Assembly (NCBI GenBank): GCA_014802105.1
Contig: JAAVCX010000028.1
Location: forward strand, 1-64,000
Source: Bacteroides sp.
GTDB taxonomy: Bacteria > Bacteroidota > Bacteroidia > Bacteroidales > Muribaculaceae
Direction of reading: 5' to 3'
DNA: 64,000 nucleotides
In this document: piece by piece, positions 11,579-64,000 of the stretch
How the letters are laid out: each line of letters opens with the position of its first letter
Numbering within the stretch: position 1 is the stretch's first letter
Program-made: the position numbers and the translations under genes
Notes under the pieces: model-generated
What the model saw: the letters and a program-made list of their open reading frames with translations, nothing else
What the model was told of the DNA's origin: nothing
Databases searched by the model: none

Positions 11579-11645
11579 ATTGACCTGTACCCCAAAAAGT
11601 TTTTGTCTAACTTTTGGAGTGCAGTTCATTTTGACACAGCCTCGC
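11579..11645 (-). repeat. Miniature IS-end-like palindromic element (copy 1)
   Basis: Reverse complement CGAGGCTGTGTCAAAATGAACTGCACTCCAAAAGTTAGACAAAAACTTTTTGGGGTACAGGTCA; matches copy 2 at 18271. Confidence 0.7.
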
Positions 11646-18270: not shown

Positions 18271-18338
18271 CGAGGCTGTGTCTAAAATAGAACTGCACTC
18301 CAAAAGTTTTGTGTTCAACTTCTGGGGTGCAGTTCAGT
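18271..18338 (+). repeat. Miniature IS-end-like palindromic element (copy 2)
   Basis: CGAGGCTGTGTCTAAAATAGAACTGCACTCCAAAAGTTTTGTGTTCAACTTCTGGGGTGCAGTTCAG; internal IR CTGCACTCCAAAAGTT/AACTTCTGGGGTGCAG. Confidence 0.75.
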
Positions 18339-18384: not shown

Positions 18385-19038
18385 TTAGTCGTTTCCATAA
18401 TTACGGATATAATCTATTGTCTCAAAAGTGTATGGATCATCGTCGTTTTCATCCCAGGACAGAATGATCTCTTTCACTTCCGGGTCGACAATGTAGTGAT
18501 AGGTATAGATCCTTGTATCTGATCCGTTATCGGCATATCTGAATTTGTGAGTAATATGCCAGTAGTTGTTCTCGGGGACGGTAACTGAGTTATAAATGCT
18601 GTCGAAATATTCTTTTTTAGTGGCAGTAGCGGTACGCAGGAGTGCCTGATCTTTCTGAGCTTTTTCAAGTTCCTGGCTTGCATAGGCATAATTTTGCATC
18701 GCATTATACACCGCATTACCATGAGATATCGAAAATGACACTGCGGCGGAACCGCAACGATCCTTCAGATCTGCCACACGTTCATCGTGCACCTCACTTT
18801 TATAGACAGAGATCAGATAATCTTTGGCAGAGTTTAATACTTCGGGGGATGAGAGATGATATTCTCGCAGAGTGTCTACCTCAATTGAGATTTTCTCGTA
18901 GGTTGAATAGTTGTCAAGTGTCTCGAAGAGATGTCTCCGGATGAGATCTTCAGCTTTGGCTTCTCTTCGTTTTGATGAGTCGCACTGTGTCATGAACACG
19001 CCTAAGAGTATCGGAAGAATGATCTTTAAAAGTTTCAT
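18385..19038 (-). CDS. Hypothetical lipoprotein
   Basis: Lipobox-like MKLLKIILPILLGVFMTQCDSS; last gene of a tight minus-strand operon. Confidence 0.75.
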   Translation of the reverse strand: MKLLKIILPILLGVFMTQCDSSKRREAKAEDLIRRHLFETLDNYSTYEKISIEVDTLREYHLSSPEVLNSAKDYLISVYKSEVHDERVADLKDRCGSAAVSFSISHGNAVYNAMQNYAYASQELEKAQKDQALLRTATATKKEYFDSIYNSVTVPENNYWHITHKFRYADNGSDTRIYTYHYIVDPEVKEIILSWDENDDDPYTFETIDYIRNYGND

Positions 19039-19039
19039 G

Positions 19040-19507
19040 TTATTTATTGGAATTTAAGGGGGTTATGAATATGAAAACTTGCTGACCGTCTTTAGCCTGG
19101 AAGTTGGTCAAGTGTTCGAGTTGTTTGACGTAGCCGACCGAGTGTTCGCGTATGTTTTCAATGATTTCAGTGTCGGAAGTTCCGTCAGCTTTCTCCGTTG
19201 TGCGGATAATCATGTCTTCCGTAATGTTGGAACCGTTGAAAAAACGCGAAGCCTGCGACATGGCTTTGACCTGTGCCACGCGGTTGAGCGCCGAGTCGCT
19301 TTTATACTTTTCTTTGTCAAGTTTCACCACCGACATCAGATAAGCGTTGTCGTAGTCCTCCACAGCCTTTACGCCATCGAAAGGAGCGTTCTCATACATT
19401 CTCACGAGAAAGTTGGTCAGTGCCGTTTTCTCCTGATTGTAGCTCTGGGAGAGAGCGTGAGTGAATGAAGCTAATAGAATTATCAGCGATAAAAAGAGTC
19501 TGTTCAT
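19040..19507 (-). CDS. Hypothetical secreted protein
   Basis: Signal peptide MNRLFLSLIILLASFTHALSQ from ATG at 19507; abuts the preceding gene. Confidence 0.75.
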   Translation of the reverse strand: MNRLFLSLIILLASFTHALSQSYNQEKTALTNFLVRMYENAPFDGVKAVEDYDNAYLMSVVKLDKEKYKSDSALNRVAQVKAMSQASRFFNGSNITEDMIIRTTEKADGTSDTEIIENIREHSVGYVKQLEHLTNFQAKDGQQVFIFITPLNSNK

Positions 19508-19508
19508 A

Positions 19509-20684
19509 TTATTTCTTGGAGTCAATTATTGTAACGATATCTTTTCTTTTGTCAAGAATGTCTATCAACTGGAGATATTGCGTAATCAAACTGTCATTGT
19601 CATAGACTTTAAACCAGAAGGGATAGCGATAGGTAGAGCCAATTCGCGCCTCGGTTAATTGAGCGGGAGCTGACTGCATTGGCTCGAACAGGGATTTCAA
19701 TCTCTCCACTACCGAATTGTCCAATGGGCCGTTGTTGTTCCGGTCAATTATGCCGATATAACGTTGGCGCAGGTTAGAGACCACAGCATAAAACTTGTTG
19801 TCCATGCCCTGGATAGAAAATTGAATCCCGGCATCAGGGAGATCCCACCCTAACTCTTGCATGGAAAGCAACCGCGGCAATCCTTTTTCTCTCAAACGGC
19901 TGTTGAGATCAACTTGTATCTTGGCCCAGAGCCTTTCATTCATCAGTTTTCTGCAGATTTCAGAGGTTTCCAGGAGTTCCTTACTTAGTCTTTCAAGAGC
20001 GGATATGTCATTCCTATCGTTGCCTGACTGGCTCAAATATTTTTCTATCTGAGCCCTGATTTCGTTTGGGATCTCCGAATTGTAATCTGATCCAAACATA
20101 TGATCGAGATAATTTATGTAGTGATACAATGCGCTGTGGACGCTGAAAGGCCTATCCTTAGTCAACAGTTTGCTGTTGAGCCATTTCCTGATGTCATACT
20201 TGTATGTCGCGGTAACAAACCGACACTTATCCTTTGATGAATCTAAAGAATATTCACTTGGCATAAGCGGATATTCTCGGGTAAGATATAATACATAAAT
20301 GTTGGGGCGACCTTCTGAATATTTTTGTTCGACATATCGGTCAATCTGACGATATTGCTCGGAGGCATTGTTGACCTTATTCTCTATAATTACTACATTA
20401 TTATCACCTTGTATAGTGATATCAATATGGTCTTGCTCAATGAGAACATTCCATGTCGCCTCTTTGCGAAACAGTCCTGTCTCCACAAACTCGTCTAAGA
20501 ACGACTTAAGAATGGATTGATCATATCTGAACATCTCGCCCAGGATGCGGCTATGGGAAGTCTCATGGAGCTTCCCCCTCGCCACAGCCTGAATGAGATT
20601 GAACGATAACTTATGAGAGACTAATCCCTCTATATTTTTAGACACAGAAGCACATAATGTTATGACCTTGTGAATATCTATCAT
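19509..20684 (-). CDS. PD-(D/E)XK nuclease superfamily protein (PDDEXK_4-like)
   Basis: GKLHETSHSRILGEMFRYDQS and core HIDITIQGDNNVVIIENKVNN (D...ExK). Confidence 0.8.
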   Translation of the reverse strand: MIDIHKVITLCASVSKNIEGLVSHKLSFNLIQAVARGKLHETSHSRILGEMFRYDQSILKSFLDEFVETGLFRKEATWNVLIEQDHIDITIQGDNNVVIIENKVNNASEQYRQIDRYVEQKYSEGRPNIYVLYLTREYPLMPSEYSLDSSKDKCRFVTATYKYDIRKWLNSKLLTKDRPFSVHSALYHYINYLDHMFGSDYNSEIPNEIRAQIEKYLSQSGNDRNDISALERLSKELLETSEICRKLMNERLWAKIQVDLNSRLREKGLPRLLSMQELGWDLPDAGIQFSIQGMDNKFYAVVSNLRQRYIGIIDRNNNGPLDNSVVERLKSLFEPMQSAPAQLTEARIGSTYRYPFWFKVYDNDSLITQYLQLIDILDKRKDIVTIIDSKK

Positions 20685-20693
20685 CTGATATAA

Positions 20694-22493
20694 TTAATCC
20701 GTCTGTATCTTAAAAGAAGAATACTTACTTATTTCCGAGACAGGTACAATTGTAGTAACTACCCATGAACATGGTATAACCGGCTGGCGGCTATACGCAT
20801 TGTCATTATATTCCGGTCTATCCGTCTTTCCATATTCACCTACATATTCAACAATAAACAATTTATTGAAAATTCCGGTGGCACCGAAACATACAAAATT
20901 CCCATTTCTATGATCCAAAATCACCTTGTCTATTTTATCCGGAAAAGTGTAAATATCAGAATTGAAATGTTCAATTCTATTTTTCTTGAATCTCTTACTA
21001 TCATTCCTAAATTTGGCCAGTTCTTCAGGAGCAAAATCAGAAGTCACGCCATTATTATCTACAATCCGGAAATTGTTTTTTACTTTATCAAGTTCTGAAT
21101 AAAGCGCCTCAAACCACTCCTCGATATCCTCCGGAGTGTTTCTTAATATGATATAACTCCAATTCTCCATATTCTCTGAGTTTCTTTCTGCAATTTCCCA
21201 GGTTTCACTCGCAATGTCCCCTATAGCATTACTCCCTTGAAAAATATTATGCCCTTGCTCACGATATTTACGGGCAGCATATTCATCAAGAGACAACTCA
21301 TGCAGAAATTTCATCACATGATAGCTCAGATCGTTATTGGGATCAATAGGAATCCATCGCACTCTAAACTGGACAAATAGGTTTTCACCATTTAAAATGT
21401 CATTAATGTCCTTCGCTTGTTCATCATCTACCACTAAGTGCCTACCATCTGGTCCTACTCTACGATTCAAGTCACTCGTCTTCACTTTAGTATGTTTCCC
21501 ATAACCCTCACTATTAACATAGCCCTCAATATTAAGTTCTGTGGGTTCATACGGTCCATCCTTAGATATATAGACTTTCGCCAATTTTGGCTCGTCGACA
21601 TATAGCACATGCTTCATATTATTCTTAGCAAATTCTGCAATCATAGGGATAGCATTGTATAATGCCTTCAATTCATTCTCTTTCTGAATCTTGAATAATT
21701 TAAGATCCATACCGAAAGTATTACCGGCAAATTCACATTCGCTTCCGTGATTTTTGGCATAGGTGACGAGATGGGGGAGACTCACGGTAGCGTTTACAGT
21801 TGCAAGATAACCATTACCTTCAGGCTTTTCAGACTCAGTGAGTATCTTGTAGTTTTTGATGGCACCGGTAGAGATTGTGACGATTTCATCCTTGACAAGA
21901 TCATCGTTAAGGATCGTGGTGTTGGCTGATACGAAGGCACCATAAGACTGCTCTATCGCCAGACGCAAAGCATTTTTAACAGCATCATCTTTTGTCGGAC
22001 CGTCAGAAGATACTGTCAGAGTGATCTCTTCGTTAGGATTTGCTTTCACAGGTGTTGCAGTTGCAGTCTCACTATTGGCGATAGCGGATGACAATTTGAC
22101 ATCTTCATTAGGGTTAACTGGTTCACGCAACATTTTTGAGATATACTCGGACGTGATTGGAAAATCTATCTTTTTAGCCAGAGTTCTAACAAATTCCATA
22201 TGTTTATCTGTAAATTCTGTATATATAGATACATCCTCATCAGGATTCGCATCTTTGATAGAATGAATATATTGGTTATATTTCCTAATCTTTCCGAAAA
22301 AATCATCATACATTAGCTTTTTGACTTCTTGAGGAGTTGAATGGGCTAATTTACGGTTCATATCCACCACTTGACTCGTTATTTCTTTTTGCAACTGGTT
22401 AATTTCATTATCATAAGATGGATTCTGTGCATCTGCGGTATTAGCCATACACGCGAATATTATCGCGGCTACAATAAATAATAATTTCTTCAT
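20694..22493 (-). CDS. Hypothetical secreted protein with LPP20/FlgT-N-like segment
   Basis: Signal peptide MKKLLFIVAAIIFACMANTADA; segment VSSDGPTKDDAVKNALRLAIEQSYGAFVSANTTIL resembles LPP20/FlgT N-domain patterns (by eye). Confidence 0.7.
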   Translation of the reverse strand: MKKLLFIVAAIIFACMANTADAQNPSYDNEINQLQKEITSQVVDMNRKLAHSTPQEVKKLMYDDFFGKIRKYNQYIHSIKDANPDEDVSIYTEFTDKHMEFVRTLAKKIDFPITSEYISKMLREPVNPNEDVKLSSAIANSETATATPVKANPNEEITLTVSSDGPTKDDAVKNALRLAIEQSYGAFVSANTTILNDDLVKDEIVTISTGAIKNYKILTESEKPEGNGYLATVNATVSLPHLVTYAKNHGSECEFAGNTFGMDLKLFKIQKENELKALYNAIPMIAEFAKNNMKHVLYVDEPKLAKVYISKDGPYEPTELNIEGYVNSEGYGKHTKVKTSDLNRRVGPDGRHLVVDDEQAKDINDILNGENLFVQFRVRWIPIDPNNDLSYHVMKFLHELSLDEYAARKYREQGHNIFQGSNAIGDIASETWEIAERNSENMENWSYIILRNTPEDIEEWFEALYSELDKVKNNFRIVDNNGVTSDFAPEELAKFRNDSKRFKKNRIEHFNSDIYTFPDKIDKVILDHRNGNFVCFGATGIFNKLFIVEYVGEYGKTDRPEYNDNAYSRQPVIPCSWVVTTIVPVSEISKYSSFKIQTD

Positions 22494-22505
22494 ATTATCA
22501 ATGGG

Positions 22506-23477
22506 TTACCAGTTTAGATATACTTTTGTTTCGGATTGATTTTCCGCCCACTTTTCTGCAACGGCGCGAGCTGCCGTTATTGTCGCCATAGAGCGGGCGT
22601 GACTGTTGGCCTGCTCGCGAGAACGAAATTCTTTTTCGTCGTTATACTGACGTTGTTTGAGCTGCCACTCGCGCTCCTTTTCTGACGACATTTTTTTAGA
22701 GATGCTGTTTGCCAGAGTTTCGGCCTCGGCAAACGACGACGAGGTGACTGGAATTTCGTTAAGGTATGTCATGGCGAGCTCGGCTCCGTTTTCGTCAGAT
22801 GATGCTGCCCAAGCGTTCTTTGCTTTTGTCAGCAATGAGGCTCCCTCACCATCAACCTTATTCTGATATATCTCGACAACCGTGGCCATAGCTTTTTCAT
22901 GACAATCACTGCAAATGTTGGGCACAGCCATCAGGTTTGCGATAGCTTCATCGCTCCGTCCTGTCGAGGCAAGGGTGCGTGCCTTTGCGATAATGTTCTC
23001 GCAATGCCCGACATAATATGACTCGATTTTTTCAGATGCTTCGTCAAACATCTGTTTGAAAGTCTGACTGGCCGGTCGGATGGTGTTGAGGGCCGTTTGC
23101 CATGCTTTGGTTTCGTTAGTCCCTATGCCTGACAATTCCATCGAAGCAGATGAGTAGATCTTATTTTCAACCACATCTCCGAGAATAAAAGTCACCTCTA
23201 CTCTCTGACTGATGTGGGGAGGAGTGGTAGCGGCCACGTCTTTCTGCACGACATTGCATTTGGCGAGCATCACAAAACGGTCGGCATGGCCGATCGATCC
23301 CAAACCGTTTTGAGTCATGGCCTGCTCCATTTTCGAGACTATGAGTTTTCTTGATGCTTCGGGTATATCCATCCCGGTCACCACGGGATAAAATGAGATT
23401 TTACCCGAATTTCCGATAGCGTTGGCTCCTGAAAAACAGAGGAGTGAAAGCATGATTGATAAAAGATAACGTTTCAT
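22506..23477 (-). CDS. Hypothetical secreted protein, possibly CsgG/TolB-like
   Basis: Signal peptide MKRYLLSIMLSLLCFSGANA; 4-bp stop/start overlap with the upstream gene; fold assignment is weak. Confidence 0.65.
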   Translation of the reverse strand: MKRYLLSIMLSLLCFSGANAIGNSGKISFYPVVTGMDIPEASRKLIVSKMEQAMTQNGLGSIGHADRFVMLAKCNVVQKDVAATTPPHISQRVEVTFILGDVVENKIYSSASMELSGIGTNETKAWQTALNTIRPASQTFKQMFDEASEKIESYYVGHCENIIAKARTLASTGRSDEAIANLMAVPNICSDCHEKAMATVVEIYQNKVDGEGASLLTKAKNAWAASSDENGAELAMTYLNEIPVTSSSFAEAETLANSISKKMSSEKEREWQLKQRQYNDEKEFRSREQANSHARSMATITAARAVAEKWAENQSETKVYLNW

Positions 23478-24421
23478 TTCTCACCCAAGATTAAGATAGC
23501 CTCGCCGAGACCACGGATTACGACTTTTGAAGTGATATCGAATGGTGCCTTCTGCAAGTATTTGCGTAGCGATGTGGCAAATGCTCGCGCGTCCATTGCG
23601 TTACCGTTTTTGTCTTTCAGGGGGATACGCACCTGTTCAAATTGAGCGAATGTTTCGGTCCCGTCGCTGAGGTTGAAGCTGCCGTTGACGGTATTCTTGC
23701 GGATCCAGTTCTGAATCACGTCGGTAAGTTCCTCTCCGTTATACTCTGTCTCAAGGTCGTTGTCCCAGCTATCCCAACAACGGACAGTCAAGGCTATTTC
23801 ACGACCGTTTTTCTTTTGGTCGGCATACCATTTGTCGAGTTGCTTGTCAAATTCCTTTACGTTAGCCTTGACAGCCTCCTCGAGAGCGACGGGAATGGCC
23901 GAAGTGGTCGGCTTGGAATTACCTGTGGCCGTGGCGATGCGCTTGTTGGTGTATGCGTCAAAGGCTTCGAGAGTGAATGAAACGACTTTGCCTGCAGGAT
24001 CTTTGGTGATGTTCCACCACAGCTGTATCACGATATCAGACTTCATGCGGCGCTTCAGTATATCAAGCGGGGTCTCGGCGATCGATGCTCCTGAGGTTTT
24101 GCTTGTCAAGACATCATCCTCTGCTTGCTTGACTCCGAGCGACTTGATCTCCATTTCGGCATCCTTCAGGCTATACCCCATGCCGGTGAGCACACCACCG
24201 ACTTTAGAGATCACCTGAGGTAACTCCAGGTCTTCGGTGAATGCTCGCTGATAATCTGACACTTTGACAGTTGAGCCTTGGTTGTCAAACGACTGGGTGA
24301 AGTAGCGCTGAGTGCACCAGTTGTCGCTCGGCAGTATCATCACAGTAGGCTTTTTTACTTCGTCGGCCAGGCATGCAATGCTTACCGCAACGCAAAAAAT
24401 GGCAAATAATAGACGGTTCAC
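23474..24421 (-). CDS. Secreted protein, DUF6175-like; first gene of the six-gene operon
   Basis: Likely GTG start at 24421 (VNRLLFAIFCVAVSIACLADEVKKPTVMILPSDNWCTQRYF...); upstream extension to 24559 overlaps the putative RNA and is not supported. Confidence 0.65.
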   Translation of the reverse strand: MNRLLFAIFCVAVSIACLADEVKKPTVMILPSDNWCTQRYFTQSFDNQGSTVKVSDYQRAFTEDLELPQVISKVGGVLTGMGYSLKDAEMEIKSLGVKQAEDDVLTSKTSGASIAETPLDILKRRMKSDIVIQLWWNITKDPAGKVVSFTLEAFDAYTNKRIATATGNSKPTTSAIPVALEEAVKANVKEFDKQLDKWYADQKKNGREIALTVRCWDSWDNDLETEYNGEELTDVIQNWIRKNTVNGSFNLSDGTETFAQFEQVRIPLKDKNGNAMDARAFATSLRKYLQKAPFDITSKVVIRGLGEAILILGEK

Positions 24422-24481
24422 GTTGTTGAATTCGTGCCGTTGGACCCCCTCGTTGGCATTTAGATTGGTTACTATATAGAA

Positions 24482-24787
24482 TACGTGAGGTCCGTACCTT
24501 TTGCTCGTCCCACAGTCAGAGGCCTTCGCATTGCCCATCTCAGTAGAACGAGCAAACATGCAGAGGCCTCACGTAGAATATGCGACATAGCCCGACATAA
24601 CACTCGCGTGTCGTGTCGGGATAAGTATATACATATCCATTTAGCCATCTACCGTTTGCTACATCCTTGACTGAGATAAGAAAGTTGCGAAGTTTCTGAC
24701 TGTCAAGAAAGAGCGTCGAGTAAACGCATTCTAAAATATTCTACAGTCCCTCCCGCATAGCCCATGAAAAGGCCTCTGCAAGTGGTC
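24482..24787 (-). ncRNA. Putative structured RNA, copy A (leader or stand-alone)
   Basis: Minus-strand TAACTTTGC promoter at 24795-24803. Hairpin 1 24666-24671/24702-24707. Hairpin 2 24482-24490/24567-24575 and 24500-24508/24548-24556. Hairpin 3 24591-24597/24614-24620. Loop-loop complementarity 24512-24520/24695-24703, 24524-24530/24686-24692, 24537-24543/24671-24677. Confidence 0.65.
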
Positions 24788-24921
24788 TGTAAGTGCAAAG
24801 TTATAAATAAATTCAGTTTATGTCAATAGCCGGTCTGTAAAAAACAACTTGTGTTTCTGATTGTTTCGATATTGACTTAAGGATAGATCCGTATTGTTGT
24901 TGCCTCACATCCGTTGTTGTT

Positions 24922-45389: not shown

Positions 45390-45403
45390 CCCATCAGGTC
45401 TCT

Positions 45404-45510
45404 CTCCACGCGGTTTACCCCGTCCCCCCTCAAGGGCGCGCTCCACGCGGTTTACCCCGTCCCCCCTCACGGGCGTCTCCACGCGGTTTATCCCGCCCCA
45501 CTTACGGGCG
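45404..45510. repeat. ~36-37-bp tandem repeat, 3 units
   Basis: CTCCACGCGGTTTACCCCGTCCCCCCTCAAGGGCG-type units at 45404, 45441 and 45477. Confidence 0.85.
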
Positions 45511-45622: not shown

Positions 45623-45737
45623 TCCCTGCAAATCGGATAGGAGATAATCACATGCAATTTTTGAACAATCCTGCCCGTGAGGGTAGACTTCATAAATTTT
45701 AAATAATTTGCACTACGGGCAACGTGTCATAAAAGCA

Positions 45738-45830
45738 AATGTAGGGACATGGCGTGCCATGTCCGCAAATGCAAGCACATGATAATTATCAGCATACATC
45801 GGCGGACATGGCACGCCATGTCCCTACATT
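45738..45830. repeat. REP/BIME-like doublet: two nested palindromes in inverted orientation
   Basis: 29-bp arms AATGTAGGGACATGGCGTGCCATGTCCGC (45738-45766) and GCGGACATGGCACGCCATGTCCCTACATT (45802-45830); each contains palindrome GGACATGGC-GT/AC-GCCATGTCC. Confidence 0.9.
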
Positions 45831-45969
45831 CATGATTATGAAACACCCTCTTTTTTCGTGCGGAGCACATCTTTGGGTACATTCTATGGGGACGCGAAGA
45901 ATGTTGTCAGTAAAATATCATGGTTATTTAATATGCCGGAGCAGTCCGAGTATAGCCTGGCCACTCAAA

Positions 45970-55919: not shown

Positions 55920-56717
55920 TTATGGAATGATTTTAGATTGGAGAAGTTCGACATTTGTGTAACCTCGAGATTGTAGCATGAGGTTAATGGCATCTCTTTG
56001 AGATTGGAAATTATATCCGTAACCTATGGTTATACTTTTTAAAATGTCTTTGGGCAGATTTATGTCAATATATGGTATGATACCATAGTCGCTAACTCTA
56101 AATTCGAATTTTTCGTAATTCTCACCATCATAAACCTCTTTATGATTTCCCCCGTTATAACTAAAAGCCATAGCATCGTGAACACAGCGGAGATAGCGAG
56201 TTTCGTTTTCATGTGCGTAAATACGGCGTTTTATGAAAGCGCAAACTTTGTCGATGTCAGTGGAATGGCATATTGTTTCAATTTGATTAAACACATTAAG
56301 TGTTTGGAAGAACTTTAGCTCCCAATCTGTCTCATCCGTGTACGTAATAGATTGAAGATGATCCCCGTCTTTATAGTGTTCTATTACAAATTCTTCTAAT
56401 TTGGAATAATCAAAGGTCAGCATATAGCCTTTCCCGTCTGTTCCATAGAGTTTCCACATCAGGTGGTTATCAGCAAGTTCGGCAAAACAGATTACATACG
56501 GGTAAGTGTGTTGATCGGGATCGAAAGGGATTTCAAGACTTTTGCAAATGTCCTTTTTCTTATCTTTAATCTTCTCGCTAATCCAGTTGTATTCCTTGCT
56601 GTCATTGAGATGTGAAAAACGTGTTGCTCGAAGGTTGATATGGTCTTTTTTCAGGATTCCTTCTAAACCATAAGCACTTGTATAGTGATGTAGCATAAAA
56701 TTTTGTTGTCCTCTCAT
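55920..56717 (-). CDS. DUF2971 family protein (start may be 56696)
   Basis: LHHYTSAYGLEGILKKDHINLRATRFSHLNDSKEYNWI; CFAELADNHLMWKLYGTDGKGYMLTFD. Confidence 0.8.
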   Translation of the reverse strand: MRGQQNFMLHHYTSAYGLEGILKKDHINLRATRFSHLNDSKEYNWISEKIKDKKKDICKSLEIPFDPDQHTYPYVICFAELADNHLMWKLYGTDGKGYMLTFDYSKLEEFVIEHYKDGDHLQSITYTDETDWELKFFQTLNVFNQIETICHSTDIDKVCAFIKRRIYAHENETRYLRCVHDAMAFSYNGGNHKEVYDGENYEKFEFRVSDYGIIPYIDINLPKDILKSITIGYGYNFQSQRDAINLMLQSRGYTNVELLQSKIIP

Positions 56718-56745
56718 TCCCCGCAGGACAGGTTAGGTATGGATA

Positions 56746-57016
56746 CAAAAAAGGTGTGAGGAATGTATCTTGTTTTATCCTAAAGTCAGGTCTTCGCATT
56801 ACCTATTCCACGGATAAAACAATAGCCCCACACCGATAAAGCTATATAAGCTGTCGGTCACGACAGGGTACAAGCTACCGATGCAGGTGCTATTGCCAAC
56901 CTTATCTTCGTGGAATTTCAAAGTTGCGAAGTTTGACTTTAGAAGATAAAATTTCAATAACACCTTAACTATATATGGATTAACTCACTGCGACGCTTCG
57001 CCTGTGATTTTGCTAA
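56746..57016 (-). ncRNA. Putative structured RNA, copy B, ending in an intrinsic-terminator-like hairpin + T7
   Basis: Minus-strand TATCTTTGC at 57024-57032. Hairpin 1 56902-56909/56942-56949. Hairpin 2 56770-56780/56812-56822 and 56753-56758/56829-56834. Loop-loop complementarity 56782-56788/56934-56940, 56792-56798/56925-56931, 56805-56812/56909-56916. T7 after hairpin 2 on the minus strand. Confidence 0.68.
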
Positions 57017-57162
57017 TCCTTTTGCAAAGATAATAAAAAGTGTTGATTATGGGGCTATATAGAAATAAAAAACATAGGGATGCGAAATCACGCCCCGCTG
57101 ATAGCCGTGGTGACGGGAATGGGGTTTGTCGATAGGTGTGGCGGTAGTGGTGGCCGGGGTAG

Positions 57163-57254
57163 GGGGATCAGCGGGCGAGGGAGAGGTTGAAGTTGAAGCC
57201 GAAGGAGGTGTTGGTGGTGGGGTAGGAGCTGGAGGAGACTATGGGGGTGTTGAC
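57163..57254. repeat. 92-bp perfect direct repeat, right copy (native sprA 3' end)
   Basis: Identical to 54606-54697; spans the sprA stop codon at 57168. Confidence 0.97.
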
Positions 57255-60200
57255 CTGGTGGTCGAAGAAGGCTCCGATGGTGAGTCGGCGCGACATGATG
57301 TAGTTGGCCGCGATGTTGATATTGAGCGTGCGTGTGCCCGAAGTGGCCTGGGTATAGGCGGTCTCGATGCGTCGTATCAGTGCCTGGGTTTCGGCAAAGG
57401 ATAGGTCGCCGTTGACGGTGAGGTCGTTGGAGATACCGTGGCCCGAACCTTTCATCTTGAGCACGGTGTTGAAGCCGATGACCTTGTATCCGAGGCCGAG
57501 GGTGATGCCGCGCTGGTTGGCCTCGACCACTTGTCCGGCCGAGGTGTTGAGCGTCAGGGTGCGCGAGTCACGATATTCAGCCGAGACGGTCATATTGTTC
57601 TTGAGAGTAGCCGAGGCGCCGATGAGGGGGGCGAATTTCTCGGTGATGGCTACCGAGGAGATGTTGTAGCGCGTGGAGGGGATGGGGTCGCCGGTGATGC
57701 CGTCGGGGGTGAAGCCGATGGCGGGATTTTCGGGCGAGGGGGCCCAGTTGAGGAATGAGGAGTAGGAGCCCACGCTGTAGGTACACTGATAGGCGTGGCT
57801 CAGGGTGAAGCTCTTGAAGATGTTGCCGAGGCGGCCGAGGTTGATAAGGCCGTCATAGGTCACGCGCCAGTTGGGGAGCGCATGGGCGAGCGAGGGGAAG
57901 GGGGAGAGATATTGCTTGTGGGGATCGGTGCCCGAGTAGGCTGAGATGAAAGCCGGGATGAGCACGTCGCTCGAGGTTGGCGATACGGTGCCCACCAGGG
58001 GATTGTAGGGGTTGCCGGCGTTGATGTTTCCATCCATGAAGCCGCCGGTGGGGTAGGTGACTCCGGCATATTGGGCTTCGTAACGGGCGGCTATGACGGG
58101 GATATTGCTCAGAAACTTGTCGAAGGCCTCGGAGGCGTAGCCGTTGTCAGCCTTGAAGTGGCGCAGGGCTGTGCGCATGGCCACATGGGTCTTGGTATAG
58201 GAGCCGGCATAGGTGGTCGGCATGTTTTCATACATGAACTGGGTGGAGCGCGAGCGGTTGTCGGTGCGGTTGGTGGTGAGGAGTATCTTCAGTCCCTTGG
58301 CCGGCTCGAGGTTGAGCTCGAGATTGATCTCGCGTGTGCGGGCCGAGTTGGCCGGCGAGGTCTGACCGTCGTCGGTGATGAGCCATCCGCGCTTGAGGGC
58401 TTTGTCGATGAAGCCGTCGCCCTCAAAGCCGAAGGCAAAGCCTACGCCGGGCGCCATCGGGCCGTAGCTGCGAGTCTGGCCCAGGAGGTTGCCGACCGAG
58501 GGGCGGTAGAGGGGGAGCGAGAGGGAACGGGTGTCGCGGTAGCGCACATTGATGCTGCGCGGAGCCATGAGGAAGCGCACTCCGTGTTCAGCCAGATCGC
58601 GCCACAGAGGTTTGCGGTCGGCCATGACTTCGGTGACCTTGAATTTGACATTCTGGGTGCCGCGGGTGAGCACGGTGAGGGTTGCGGGATCCTCGATGCG
58701 GGTCTCGATGCGGATGGGCTTGTTGGTGGTGGCGTCGACGGCGGTGACTTTGATTTTCTTGACGCGCAGGTTGTGACGCAGGGTGATGGTGGTGTCGGGC
58801 TTGAGAGCCATGGTGCGTTCAAATACACGTGGTTTGCGTTTGGCGGCGCTTGATCGTTTGGCCTGGAAGCGGTTGTCGATCTCCTTGGTGAAGGCCCATT
58901 TGCGGTAGATGCTCTCGATGTTGACACGGCCGTCGGCGTTCCAGGCGGCCTGATTGGCTATGGAGTTGCCCATCGACACGCCGTCGACCTCGGCTCCGCG
59001 ATCCCATCGGTAGGTGGCGTTGTAGGAGACATTTCCTGTCAGCCAGTCGAGCACGGGGATCTTGCTGAAGGGGGCCTTGTAGCTCACTACAAATGACTGA
59101 TTGTAGGCCCAGGGTGTACCTAAATGGAGGAGCGACTGGATGACGGTGTCTTTCCACTCGCGATATTTGTCGGGGAAGAGACGGCGGTTGACGGCACCCA
59201 TTGTCTCCTCGATGCGTGCCGAGGTGTTGGAGTTGAAGTTGACGCTGAGAGATTTGGTGAGGTTCCAGGCGATGGCCAACTGGCGGTCCCAGGTGAAATT
59301 CTTGCTCACCGACACCGGGAGCTGGAAATCGTTGTCGGTCTCGGAGCGGGTCTGGAGTTCGTAATAGTAGCGCGAGATGGTGGTCAGGAACGAGATGGTG
59401 GTCGGCAGATAGTTGAGCTCCCACTCCTTGAAGAATTTCAGGTGTTTGCTCTTGCTCTTGATAAAGGCCAGCGGCCTGAGGGGTTTGGCGTAGGGGGAGT
59501 AGGTGTACTGGAGGGAGCCGCGGTAATCGTTGGTGTACTCATACTCGGTGGTAGGGTCGCTCTTAGACTGCTTGTTAAACGAGAAGTTGACCGTGAAGTT
59601 GGCCGGATCCCAGGGCATGGGGTTCTTGCTCTTGACGTCAAACTTGAGGCCAGAGATGGAGAAGTTCTTGACCGTGGAGTGGTCGACGGCATAGTTGAGT
59701 ATCGAGTCTTTCTGGGCTTTGGTGGTGCAGGCGTCGAGGGCGTCCTTGAGCTCCACGTCCTGGTCGAGAGGATTGTATTTGGGGGTGGTCTTCTCTTTGG
59801 TGACACTGTAATAGATCGGGGCGCGTAGCTTGAACGACTCGGGCAGGAAGCGTCCGGCGTCGATCTGCATGGCGAAACTGTATTGCTCGTAGTCGTCCAT
59901 GCGCCTGGAGTTGAGCGCCTGGTCAACGGCGCCAAAGCCGGCAGTCTCCTTGTGGGCGGCAAAGTTGAGGGTGCCTATGTCGGATAGGCCCAGATTGACG
60001 TTGCCCTTGGCAGCCCATCCTCCCGAATTGTTGAAGTCGGTGACTTTAAGTTCGTTGAGCCACACGGTGGCGTCCTTGACGGTCGAGGCGTTGTTGCGCA
60101 CACCGACCATCATCACTCTGACGTCGCTGAGCGAGGGATTGCCGACGACAGTCATGCGGCACCGCTCGTTGGAGGGGTCGCGCTTGGAGTAGGGGATGGC

Positions 60201-63200
60201 ATAACCCACGCCGGGAGTGTTGTCGTTTTTGGCGTGGTTGCGCTCCTTCTTGAGGTCGACGAGCTGCTGGAGGACGAGATCCATGAAGTTGGCGGCCGGC
60301 CACACGGCCGAGCGCTCGGCATCGGTGTAATGGCCCGGGGGGGTCAGATCGAGTGGCACCTCATACTCGTAGTAATTGCTGCGCACGTCGGAGCCGAGGC
60401 GTATGAAGGCGGCTACCTGACCGTTGCGCAGGTCGGTCTTGTCGTCGATGAGTTGCTCGGCGTGGATCCACATCTGGAGGCGTTTGTAGTTGCGCATGTC
60501 GAGCAGGGTGTTTTTATAGACACCGCGGCCGTCGCCGGGCTGCAGGCCGGTGACCTTGAGCGAGATCGACTGCTCGTTGAGCTGCACTATCTGGCTCTGG
60601 CTGGGGTCGGAGATGCGGCTCACACCCGGGGGGAGCACATAGTTGACCGGCTCACGGCCGGCGTTTTCCTCGATATTTACCACCGAGACGTCGAGCTCGC
60701 CCTCGGCTGGAGCGTCGCCTCGGGTGTTGAGGTTGAATTTATAGGGGCGCCACTCGCCCTTGACCAGCTCGAGGGTGGCGAAACGCAGGTGGGTGGTGGC
60801 TTTGAAGCCGGTCATATACATGCGTGCAAACCTGATGGTCGAGAAGTCGTTGATATTGCCGACGATCTTCTCGTAGGCGGCCAGAGGTATCTTGAACTGA
60901 TACCACACGACCTCCTGGGTGGAGCCGTCGTTGTTGATCACCAGAGAGGTCTGCTTGTCGGTGATGAAGTTGCGGCCCACCTCGAGATCTTCGGGGCGTA
61001 TCGAGACGCGATACTGGTAGTAGCGCTCATACTCGTTGAGGGTGTTGTCCTGGTTGATGTCCTCGACATCGGGCAGAGCGCGCGAGGACTGATAGAGGGG
61101 ATCGGGCGCGTCGTCGGGCGACAGGGAGTTGCCCTCCACGCCGTTGTAGCGCTTGTAGCGTTCGAGCACTCCGAGTCGCTGCTCGTCGTAGTCGTAGCCG
61201 CGATAGAAGTGGTAGTTGTCGCCGGCGGGGTCGTTGAAGGGGGAGAATTTGTCCTGCTCCATGGCGGCGATTGTCGAGGCGTCGAGGCGGGAGCGCAGTT
61301 TGTCGAGATACTCGGCGTAGGAGCTGAAGCCAAACTCCAGGTCGTTCTTGAGGCCGTCGAGACCGACGTCCTGGATGGGTCGGGCCGAACTGTTGTTGTC
61401 GAAGGCGTAGGTCAGCGAGTTCTGAGACGAGACTTTGCCCCAGACGGTCTCCTGCATGAACTGTTCGTTGCCGTCGACGGGGTTGCCGTTCTCGTAGGTC
61501 TTCAGGCCGTCCTTGAGGATGTCTTCAGAGACTTCGCCGAAGTTGATGTAGAGGTCGCCGCCACTGAGGTTGTCGGCGTCGGGATCGAGGAACGGAGAGA
61601 GCATCCAGAACTGGACATACTCGATATTCGAGGCCTCGAAGTTGGTGTTGTCCATGCGCCGCATGATGCCTCCCCAGCGTTTCTCGGGGTCAGAGAGCGA
61701 GCCGTCGGGGTTGACTCCATCGGCGTCGAGATTGTAGGGGCCGCGCTCGGTGGGGTAGAAGGAGAGGTTGAGGGTCTGTATAGTGTTTGACTCGCCATAG
61801 GTGAGTTCCCTGCCCGGGAAGATCTCTTTGGAGGTGACTTCGCGTATGTAGGGATTGTTCATCTGCTTGGGGTCGCTCTTGATGTAGCCGGGACATAGCG
61901 AGGAGTTGCGCTCGGTGAACATGCGGTCGATATAGTACCAGTTGAGCAGGGCTCGGTTTTTGCCGTAGTCGACGTTGTTGCTCAGGGCCGCTTCGGGGAA
62001 GAGGGCTCCCGGGGACGGGTCGTAGGGGGTAGCAGAGAGGAACCACGAGTAGGGTGAGCGCAGGTCGATGCCTATCTGGGTAGACTCGAAGTCGTCGATG
62101 TAGCTTGAGCCGCGTGTCGATCCGCTCTTCTGGGCGTGGGGCATGAGTTGGGCAAACTCGGCCTGGAGGGCCAGGGTCGAGGGGGCTTCGGCGTTGACGG
62201 TGGGTATCTTGTTGAGCAGGTTGGTGAGCCATTGGAAGCGTGTGGTGTAGCGTGTGTTGAGGCCCCACATCGTGTTGTTGACCACCTCATCGCCTATATT
62301 GACTTTTTCAGTGAGTGCCTTTTCGGAGAAGTGCATCAGAGTGCCACCGAGACTGAAGTCTTTGTTGAACTGGTAGTTGAGATCGAGGCCGAGGAGGGTC
62401 TTGCGCTGGGTCGAGAAGAGTGACTGGTTCTCGAGGGTGACGCTGATGTTCTGGCCCGAGTCGATGATGCTCTGGTTGGTGATGGTGACTATACCCATGG
62501 TGTAGTCGACGGTGTAGTCGCTGTTCTCGCGCAGGGTGACTCCGCCGGCTGTGACCACTACCGATCCTCGCGGCACGTTCATGGCGTTGAGCCTGATCTG
62601 TGAGCCTGAGGAGGCTTGATAATGGCCTGTGAGCACAAATTTGTTTTTGTCGGCAAACTGCTTGGCTATCACCAAGGTGGAGTCGTAGAGCTCCTTGTAG
62701 ACGTATCGCTCGGCAAGCACCGGGTCGTCTATCTTTCGCTCGAGGTTTGAGCCGAAGGGCTCGGCCACGGGGAAGATGATTTTGCCCTGGGAGGAGAGGA
62801 TGGTGTATCCCTCGATGAAGTCAAAGAAGCCGTCGGGGTTGGTGGCCTGGTTGGAGTCGATATTGTCGAGCCCGGTGACCCTCAGCAGCGGCTGGTCGGC
62901 AATGGAGGGGACGGGGAGATAATTGATCTCGGTGCCGGTGGTGTCGCTCAGATACTTGACGTTGAGGCGGAAATTGTTTTTCTGTACCTGGAAGGCACCG
63001 AGCGAGTAGACGTTTTTCATCATCAGTTTCCACAGAGGCTGACGCGGGTCGATGGTGGTCGACTTGAGCATCTTGAGATAGAGCGATGAGGCGGTGGTGG
63101 TGATGTCGGCCGAAAATTCACCGACCTTGTAAGTCTTGCCACCGTAGGTGTACTCGTAGGCCACGCCGAGCACTTCGTCAGAGCTCAGGGCGGTCTTGAG

Positions 63201-64000
63201 CGATATGTATCCGAGGGTGGAGTTGAGGGTGTACTCAGAGGAAGCCAGCAGTCGGGCCGACTCAACTTTCTCGTAGTCGCTACCTCCGTCGATACCATAG
63301 GCGGCCAGCGGGGCCAGGGCTTGGGTGACGGTTGAAATGTTGCGTGCGCCGGGATAGTCCTCGGAGATGACGCGAAGCAGGTTGTTGGAGGAGTTGGAGG
63401 GGACTGAGACGGCGAGGTCAGGCTGCCAGTAGTCGCTGGCGAGCACACGGTTTTCGCCGAGATCCTGGAAGGCCACGAAGTCGCGGCTCTGCTCGAAGTG
63501 GCTGTTGCGGTTGGTGACCCATACTTCGATGCGTGTGATGTTGATGCCCGAGGAGACAAAGGGGAGGCGCGAGGCAAAGGTGTCGTAGTTGTCGCGGAAG
63601 TATTGGGCCAGGAAGAAGTGGCGGTTCTGGTCGTAGTCGGCGGCGCTGATGCTGAAGTCAGTGGTCTGGGAGCCTCCTTTAGAGTTGACGGTGGTGGACT
63701 GGGAGTTCTGCTGAGAGACCAATGCTGTGGCCGTGAGTTTGCCAAACTGGAGTTTTGTCTTGATGCCGAAGAGCGCGGTGCTACCCCTGATGAGCGACGA
63801 GCCTGTGGTCATGGAAACGTTGCCGGCTTCGATTGACTTGACTATATCGTCCTCCTTGCCTTCATAGGCGAGCTTGATGTTTTTGGAGTCGAAGTCAAAG
63901 GTAGCGTCGGTGTTGTAGCTCATGTTGAAGTTCATGCGGTCGCCAACCGAGGCCTGTATATTGGCCTGTATCTTCTGGTCGAAGTCGAAGTAGGTCTTGC
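57168..64000 (-). CDS. sprA: cell-surface protein SprA (T9SS outer-membrane translocon), N-terminus beyond window end
   Basis: >2255 aa; repeats of WLNELKVTDFNNSGGWAAKGNVNLGLSDIGTLNFAAH, PYSWFLSATPYDPSPGALFPEA, C-terminal barrel GFNFNLSLAR. Frame stays open through 64000. Confidence 0.93.
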   Translation of the reverse strand, partial: KTYFDFDQKIQANIQASVGDRMNFNMSYNTDATFDFDSKNIKLAYEGKEDDIVKSIEAGNVSMTTGSSLIRGSTALFGIKTKLQFGKLTATALVSQQNSQSTTVNSKGGSQTTDFSISAADYDQNRHFFLAQYFRDNYDTFASRLPFVSSGINITRIEVWVTNRNSHFEQSRDFVAFQDLGENRVLASDYWQPDLAVSVPSNSSNNLLRVISEDYPGARNISTVTQALAPLAAYGIDGGSDYEKVESARLLASSEYTLNSTLGYISLKTALSSDEVLGVAYEYTYGGKTYKVGEFSADITTTASSLYLKMLKSTTIDPRQPLWKLMMKNVYSLGAFQVQKNNFRLNVKYLSDTTGTEINYLPVPSIADQPLLRVTGLDNIDSNQATNPDGFFDFIEGYTILSSQGKIIFPVAEPFGSNLERKIDDPVLAERYVYKELYDSTLVIAKQFADKNKFVLTGHYQASSGSQIRLNAMNVPRGSVVVTAGGVTLRENSDYTVDYTMGIVTITNQSIIDSGQNISVTLENQSLFSTQRKTLLGLDLNYQFNKDFSLGGTLMHFSEKALTEKVNIGDEVVNNTMWGLNTRYTTRFQWLTNLLNKIPTVNAEAPSTLALQAEFAQLMPHAQKSGSTRGSSYIDDFESTQIGIDLRSPYSWFLSATPYDPSPGALFPEAALSNNVDYGKNRALLNWYYIDRMFTERNSSLCPGYIKSDPKQMNNPYIREVTSKEIFPGRELTYGESNTIQTLNLSFYPTERGPYNLDADGVNPDGSLSDPEKRWGGIMRRMDNTNFEASNIEYVQFWMLSPFLDPDADNLSGGDLYINFGEVSEDILKDGLKTYENGNPVDGNEQFMQETVWGKVSSQNSLTYAFDNNSSARPIQDVGLDGLKNDLEFGFSSYAEYLDKLRSRLDASTIAAMEQDKFSPFNDPAGDNYHFYRGYDYDEQRLGVLERYKRYNGVEGNSLSPDDAPDPLYQSSRALPDVEDINQDNTLNEYERYYQYRVSIRPEDLEVGRNFITDKQTSLVINNDGSTQEVVWYQFKIPLAAYEKIVGNINDFSTIRFARMYMTGFKATTHLRFATLELVKGEWRPYKFNLNTRGDAPAEGELDVSVVNIEENAGREPVNYVLPPGVSRISDPSQSQIVQLNEQSISLKVTGLQPGDGRGVYKNTLLDMRNYKRLQMWIHAEQLIDDKTDLRNGQVAAFIRLGSDVRSNYYEYEVPLDLTPPGHYTDAERSAVWPAANFMDLVLQQLVDLKKERNHAKNDNTPGVGYAIPYSKRDPSNERCRMTVVGNPSLSDVRVMMVGVRNNASTVKDATVWLNELKVTDFNNSGGWAAKGNVNLGLSDIGTLNFAAHKETAGFGAVDQALNSRRMDDYEQYSFAMQIDAGRFLPESFKLRAPIYYSVTKEKTTPKYNPLDQDVELKDALDACTTKAQKDSILNYAVDHSTVKNFSISGLKFDVKSKNPMPWDPANFTVNFSFNKQSKSDPTTEYEYTNDYRGSLQYTYSPYAKPLRPLAFIKSKSKHLKFFKEWELNYLPTTISFLTTISRYYYELQTRSETDNDFQLPVSVSKNFTWDRQLAIAWNLTKSLSVNFNSNTSARIEETMGAVNRRLFPDKYREWKDTVIQSLLHLGTPWAYNQSFVVSYKAPFSKIPVLDWLTGNVSYNATYRWDRGAEVDGVSMGNSIANQAAWNADGRVNIESIYRKWAFTKEIDNRFQAKRSSAAKRKPRVFERTMALKPDTTITLRHNLRVKKIKVTAVDATTNKPIRIETRIEDPATLTVLTRGTQNVKFKVTEVMADRKPLWRDLAEHGVRFLMAPRSINVRYRDTRSLSLPLYRPSVGNLLGQTRSYGPMAPGVGFAFGFEGDGFIDKALKRGWLITDDGQTSPANSARTREINLELNLEPAKGLKILLTTNRTDNRSRSTQFMYENMPTTYAGSYTKTHVAMRTALRHFKADNGYASEAFDKFLSNIPVIAARYEAQYAGVTYPTGGFMDGNINAGNPYNPLVGTVSPTSSDVLIPAFISAYSGTDPHKQYLSPFPSLAHALPNWRVTYDGLINLGRLGNIFKSFTLSHAYQCTYSVGSYSSFLNWAPSPENPAIGFTPDGITGDPIPSTRYNISSVAITEKFAPLIGASATLKNNMTVSAEYRDSRTLTLNTSAGQVVEANQRGITLGLGYKVIGFNTVLKMKGSGHGISNDLTVNGDLSFAETQALIRRIETAYTQATSGTRTLNINIAANYIMSRRLTIGAFFDHQVNTPIVSSSSYPTTNTSFGFNFNLSLAR

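Follow-up and report, generated by a model that had tools for sequence, protein, structure and literature searches.

Six genes on the minus strand of the window (the whole stretch of 64,000 nucleotides of Bacteroides sp. DNA analysed here) are led by an RNA element of about 370 nt, counted from the transcription start to a hairpin at the start codon. The first gene encodes a DUF6175 protein and opens with GTG; the ATG chosen for it by the ORF caller, 24559, falls within the RNA. Among the five genes that follow is one for a PDDEXK_4 protein of the PD-(D/E)XK nuclease superfamily, in an operon otherwise made up mostly of exported-looking or unknown proteins. One arm of a 30-nt inverted repeat (87% complementary; 11609-11638 and 18279-18308) lies just beyond the operon end, and a palindrome at 45724-45844 (60-nt arms, 78% complementary, 1-nt spacer) has 36-37-nt tandem repeats close by, at 45396-45505.

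An earlier note on this DNA had described the element, here called copy A, as two hairpins with mutually complementary loops, a third hairpin between them and a promoter on the 5' side. Each of these parts was recovered on the minus strand exactly where it had been placed (Table 1): hairpin 1, both stems of hairpin 2, all three blocks of loop complementarity, the hairpin between them and the promoter element. The GTG lies 61 nt beyond 24482, where about 60 nt had been claimed, and the 5' end of the transcript is expected near 24790. The second copy, copy B, is likewise real, with a covariance-model match at 56744-56840 (minus strand, E 4.7e-6).

Table 1. Features of copies A and B and of the genes behind them, in window coordinates.
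Feature	Position	Strand	Details
TTGACA	24826-24821	-	copy A promoter region
-7 promoter element TAACTTTG	24796..24803	-	sequence; TAnnTTTG conserved upstream of copies
5' domain D1	24743..24790	-	closing stem P1 and strand m
Stem P1	24790-24784 / 24749-24743	-	74.6% paired; two-sided changes at all 7 pairs
Strand m GCAGAGGCC	within 24780-24771	-	partner m' 24568-24559
Strand n TAGAATGCGT	24724..24733	-	closes long hairpin (state 2) with n' 24486-24477; 10/10 paired in copy A
Hairpin H1 (hairpin 1; state 1)	24666..24707	-	CTTGAC 24707-24702 / GTCAAG 24671-24666, inner stem GAAA/TTTC; lower stem 96.4% paired
Strands a, b, c inside H1	a 24703-24695, b 24692-24686, c 24677-24671	-	complementary to a', b', c' over 9, 7 and 7 bp
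Strand X GCAAAC	24654..24659	-	state 2 partner Y
Strand w GTAGATGGC	24644..24652	-	second partner of m' (state 2)
Stem P5 GGATATG/CATATTC	24576..24638	-	91.7% paired; encloses the variable third hairpin
Third hairpin CCCGACA..TGTCGGG	24620-24591	-	variable
3' domain (hairpin 2; state 1)	24482..24575	-	stem T, then Y and Z
Terminator-like stem T (outer stem)	24575-24567 / 24490-24482	-	TACGTGAGG / CCTCACGTA
Y / Z (inner stem)	24557-24546 / 24510-24500	-	TTTGCTCGTTC (24556-24546) / GGACGAGCAAA
Loop strands in 3' domain	c' 24543-24537, b' 24530-24524, a' 24520-24512	-	
U-run position after stem T	24473..24481	-	degenerate in copy A: ATTCTATATAG
Hairpin SL3	24435..24458	-	directly 5' of start codon, about 15 nt before it
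Helix K	24446-24442 / 24493-24489	-	SL3 loop GGTCC / GGACC
First gene, DUF6175	23474..24421	-	GTG start 24421; Pfam E 7.6e-105
Five further genes	22506-23477, 20694-22493, 19509-20684 (PDDEXK_4), 19040-19525, 18385-19038	-	ORFs; Pfam; together 18385..23477
Copy B promoter element TATCTTTG	57032-57025	-	
Copy B RNA	~57020-56707	-	whole unit 56707..57032; SL3 56729-56708
Copy B downstream gene	likely ATG 56696	-	265-aa ORF

Strand, novelty and distribution of the RNA

Folding of the region 24480-24795 on the minus strand gives -133 kcal/mol, compared with -86.8 (sd 4.0) for dinucleotide shuffles (z -11.4, 0/100 shuffles reaching it), while the plus strand of the same region reaches a z of -4.6; copy B folds with a z of -7.3. 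Because G-U pairs outnumber A-C mismatches by 129 to 22 over nine helices in 28 copies, the minus-strand RNA is the selected molecule. The Bacteroidetes promoter TAnnTTTG points the same way: it lies upstream of 166 of 183 copies, compared with 4 of 183 for the complementary strand. The choice of strand, which the earlier note had offered as an inference, is borne out by all three observations, and an RNA from the plus strand or a palindrome of the DNA was rejected because of the wobble bias together with the folding.

Scanning copy A with Rfam 15 (cmscan) gave no match at the gathering threshold, and for the whole window the only one was a tRNA, with no T-box among the hits. At E<=10, the region 24350-24900 returned only sroH, at 11.3 bits and E 2.6, a chance match. 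A known RNA class was rejected on the basis of this search, and no description of the family was found in open-licence PMC papers. At the same time, homologs exist beyond copies A and B, and they carry covarying pairs. The element is a real RNA family, new to Rfam, and the comparison of its sequences supports the proposed reading as an undescribed structured RNA and candidate riboregulator. Attenuation by a leader peptide was set aside, the 28-copy alignment containing no conserved small ORF by eye.

BLAST of the region detected further copies in the same assembly; within the genus, 24 of 27 genomes carry the element, the source genome included. For a wider view we used a covariance model, R1, of the 3' domain (covering 24582-24473). 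It matched 177 of 198 genomes of the family, in 28/30 genera and with up to 17 copies per genome, and 33 of 295 genomes of the order, 29 of which lie outside the family; in a phylum-wide sample the single match among 249 genomes was the source genome itself. Named carriers include MAGs of Muribaculaceae and isolates of Segatella, Xylanibacter, Prevotella, Paraprevotella and Phocaeicola oris; as the isolates belong to cultured species, the RNA is directly testable. Nine copies lie on contigs of MAGs titled Veillonellaceae, Pseudoflavonifractor, Lachnospiraceae, Clostridiales, Eubacteriales or Firmicutes, either because these bins are mislabelled or contaminated or because the RNA has been transferred beyond the order.

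Phage and plasmid records held no DNA match, and one pattern, that of the conserved 3' domain, was seen in four IMG/VR contigs, which may be phage or host DNA; an element of phages or plasmids was rejected on these grounds.

Conservation of two exclusive folds

Pairing was counted in the 28-copy alignment for two structures, with slid partners as controls. State 1, comprising H1, Y:Z, T, m:m', P1, P5 and b, has 93.6% of its cells paired (slid controls, 34-46%), and state 2, comprising n:n', a, b, c, X:Y, m:m', P1 and P5, has 92.8% (slid controls, 31-47%) and a covariation score of 0.479 compared with 0.181 in shuffles. Both folds are conserved helix by helix: for state 1, H1 is paired in 96.4%, T in 96.9% and Y:Z in 99.6%; for state 2, a in 98.6%, b in 100%, c in 98.8%, X:Y in 96.7% and n:n' in 95%. 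All four Watson-Crick orientations occur in helices a and c. In a phylogeny-aware test on 182 copies (a G-test corrected by average product, with substitutions re-placed on a FastTree tree), 15 pairs were significant at E<=0.05, all of them complementary, with five in a, five in c, four in b and one in T.

The strands of helices a and c (24703-24671 / 24543-24512) are much more variable than the adjoining sequence, and almost always paired. This variability may be neutral, or possibly reflects selection against cross-pairing between copies within one cell.

Several strands have more than one conserved partner. Y alternates between X and Z, m' between m of the 5' domain and w, and the 3' strand of stem T has three partners, namely, the 5' strand of T, n, and the SL3 loop, which engages its 5' half through helix K. 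We compared duplex energies across copies for these exchanges, a comparison that ignores phylogeny throughout. In 11 copies with a variant Y, pairing is better with the copy's own X than with the consensus X (-7.4 versus -4.7 kcal/mol) and likewise with its own Z (-16.2 versus -10.2 kcal/mol). For m:m', own partners give -15.2 kcal/mol and those of other copies -13.1 (p 2e-7), and for w:m' the values are -11.0 and -9.8 kcal/mol (p 3e-13), the reversed control being flat in both cases. Copies with unusual tails pair at -8.2 kcal/mol with their own n and at -6.8 with the consensus n. Helix K, over 140 copies, gives -9.4 kcal/mol for own and -7.35 for other partners (p 2e-15), with three control strands flat or nearly so. 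On this sequence evidence, the terminator-like and antiterminator-like pairings are exclusive and conserved, T versus n:n' and Y:Z versus X:Y, and both covary.

The clearest single case of strand exchange is copy B, in which nearly every helix, b excepted, is rebuilt in different letters; the renewed ones include H1, a, c, X:Y, Y:Z, K and SL3. Its n (AAGGTGT), T5' (GGTGTGGGG) and T3' (CCTCACACC) have changed together, such that T3' retains its pairing with both n and T5'.

These data also modify the original view of the loops. Their mutual complementarity stands; two intact, kissing hairpins do not, and the better reading places the blocks within one long alternative hairpin. Simple kissing, with 23 bp between two closed loops, seems topologically implausible by reasoning and leaves X, w, n and SL3 without a role. 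Two exclusive folds replace it.

With pseudoknots ignored, which makes the balance of states uncertain, state 2 has the lower energy in all but one of the 28 copies (27/28), with a mean difference of 15.7 kcal/mol. Thermodynamic folding of transcript prefixes has H1 forming first and X:Y next, after which c, b and a zip up and n closes the hairpin.

A proposed switch ahead of unrelated genes

The element is a cis-acting leader by position: an ORF of at least 50 aa starts on the same strand within 220 nt of 182 out of 195 distinct copies, and in 131 of these 182 the start lies 40-79 nt past the T-run. (Many of the 195 copies were retrieved by searching for the pattern of a single conserved stretch, whose letter frequencies are biased as a result.) The genes themselves are diverse. 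Among 136 first-gene proteins there are 68 Pfam families, the commonest of which, LRR_5 (BspA-type repeats), occurs in 10, and 168 first-gene proteins form 127 clusters. By a crude rule, signal-peptide-like starts are found in 52% of cargo proteins of at least 150 aa, compared with 20% of background ORFs. The downstream genes are not amino-acid genes and indicate no known ligand class; a riboswitch specific to one pathway, or a regulon restricted to defence, was rejected, the gene families being too mixed. RNA-gene pairs recur across species, both with DUF6175 and in 23 clusters. The RNA lies upstream of the gene in 5/5 instances when the copy A protein and four homologs at least 78% identical to it are considered, and in 2 of 25 more distant homologs fetched.

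With moderate confidence, we interpret the element as an undescribed family of large, pseudoknotted, bistable cis-acting 5' leader RNAs of Bacteroidales, whose exclusive folds would form an attenuator. It probably serves the downstream genes as a large RNA switch. We infer that the element is transcribed and terminates conditionally, in the following direction. In state 1, H1, Y:Z and stem T would form, with m:m' connecting to the 5' domain, and stem T with its U-run would act as an intrinsic terminator at which the transcript stops. In state 2, a single long hairpin would arise from the pairings n:n', a:a', b:b', c:c', X:Y and w:m'. Both halves of the 3' strand of the terminator would then be occupied, by n and by the SL3 loop, permitting read-through, and the hairpin near the start codon would be docked on the core. 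Read-through is the likely default in this model because prefix folding suggests that a growing transcript nucleates X:Y and zips into state 2. Whatever stabilises state 1 would turn the gene off.

Such an arrangement resembles that of transcription-attenuating riboswitches, including large orphan candidates, in being a 5' leader with a complex pseudoknotted fold, several copies per genome and mutually exclusive terminator-like and antiterminator-like pairings, here predicted from covariation. It differs in that the genes share no pathway, in contrast with those of most metabolite riboswitches, and point to no known ligand; in that nearly the whole RNA swaps partners instead of a short expression platform; and in that the terminator strand also has a partner in a conserved hairpin located past the U-run. 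Leader RNAs of the T-box class likewise occur in several copies per genome and choose between terminator and antiterminator, unlike the present family in their Rfam match and amino-acid genes. A metastable local hairpin giving way to long-range pairing, and complementary loops developing into an extended duplex, recall hok/sok-type mRNAs and CopA-CopT kissing; here, in contrast, all strands reside in one molecule, and no antisense RNA or small toxin was identified alongside.

A possible, albeit less probable, alternative is a leader acting in cis at the level of translation or mRNA stability, the long hairpin and SL3-K docking exposing or hiding the start region and the U-run being merely the partner of n. 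This reading draws on the position of SL3 just before the start codon, on the covariation of its loop with the core, and on copy A, which retains n:n' by compensatory changes though its U-run is lost. It does not account for the very strong T-richness after stem T (147 of 166 copies have at least 6 T among 8 positions), nor for the covariation of stem T itself, which n:n' alone would not require. Within the attenuator model, too, the poor U-run of copy A means that termination cannot be strong in every copy, and the conservation of SL3 and K downstream of the U-run implies that part of the function concerns the read-through mRNA. It is mainly for these two reasons that a translational role may exist.

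We consider it improbable that the element is a stand-alone, trans-acting small RNA of about 310 nt with the U-run as its 3' end, adjoining genes by chance. Its own promoter, strong fold and terminator-like 3' end would suit such an RNA, whereas the same-strand gene 3' of nearly all copies, at a narrow start distance, the structure extending beyond the U-run to SL3 by the start codon, and the RNA-gene pairs shared between species speak for a leader.

Less credible still is a DNA-level recombination element, that is, an attC-like hairpin or palindromic repeat acting as single-stranded DNA and marking mobile gene cassettes. Many dispersed copies do lie ahead of unrelated genes, and direct repeats of at least 20 nt surround 14 of 100 copies with enough flanking DNA, versus 6 of 311 anchors placed at random in that DNA, some of the repeats resembling dispersed intergenic ones; copy B, too, sits between perfect repeats. 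Set against this, the excess of G-U over A-C and the gap between plus- and minus-strand folds indicate selection on RNA, conservation extends to promoter and start-codon spacing, and most copies have no flanking repeat. Finally, a variant of a known RNA class overlooked by the models, which the layout of T-boxes and big riboswitches as similarly large, bistable leaders might suggest, is barely plausible given that Rfam offers nothing beyond the sroH chance match and no known ligand class is suggested by the genes.

An apparently undescribed RNA family is thus present in most sampled genomes of one gut bacterial family. Covariation records both of its folds, and two conserved partners exist for several of its strands; it is for this reason a rare case in nature on which co-transcriptional RNA switching can be tested. 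As a switch, it would subject many surface and accessory genes of gut bacteria, unrelated to one another, to one common signal.

Flanking repeats and mobility of RNA-led units

The repeats around some units raise the rather unlikely prospect of a mobile gene-cassette system in gut Bacteroidales with this leader at its front, in which promoter and bistable RNA travel as a module with unrelated accessory genes. Each acquired gene would then arrive already under one common RNA switch. Mobility of RNA-led units is to be taken as a lead, not a result. Integron gene cassettes with their attC hairpins are comparable in having one structured element beside unrelated accessory genes, and some of the present units are flanked by direct repeats. 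Unlike attC, the element stands 5' of the gene with its own promoter and has its RNA pairing under selection; no integrase was noticed beside the window copies.

For copy A, no empty site was readable, the segment after engB differing among the relatives compared. Copy B and its two genes, encoding the 265-aa protein and a BspA-like protein, are bracketed by perfect 92-nt direct repeats (57254-57163 and 54697-54606, minus strand). This repeat has just two copies genome-wide and is identical to the 3' end of a conserved 2255-aa gene at 57168-63935, behind which no clear empty site was seen. Nine other RNA-led units have direct repeats of 30-101 nt, mostly reaching from a few hundred bases upstream of the promoter to 1.7-3.6 kb downstream.
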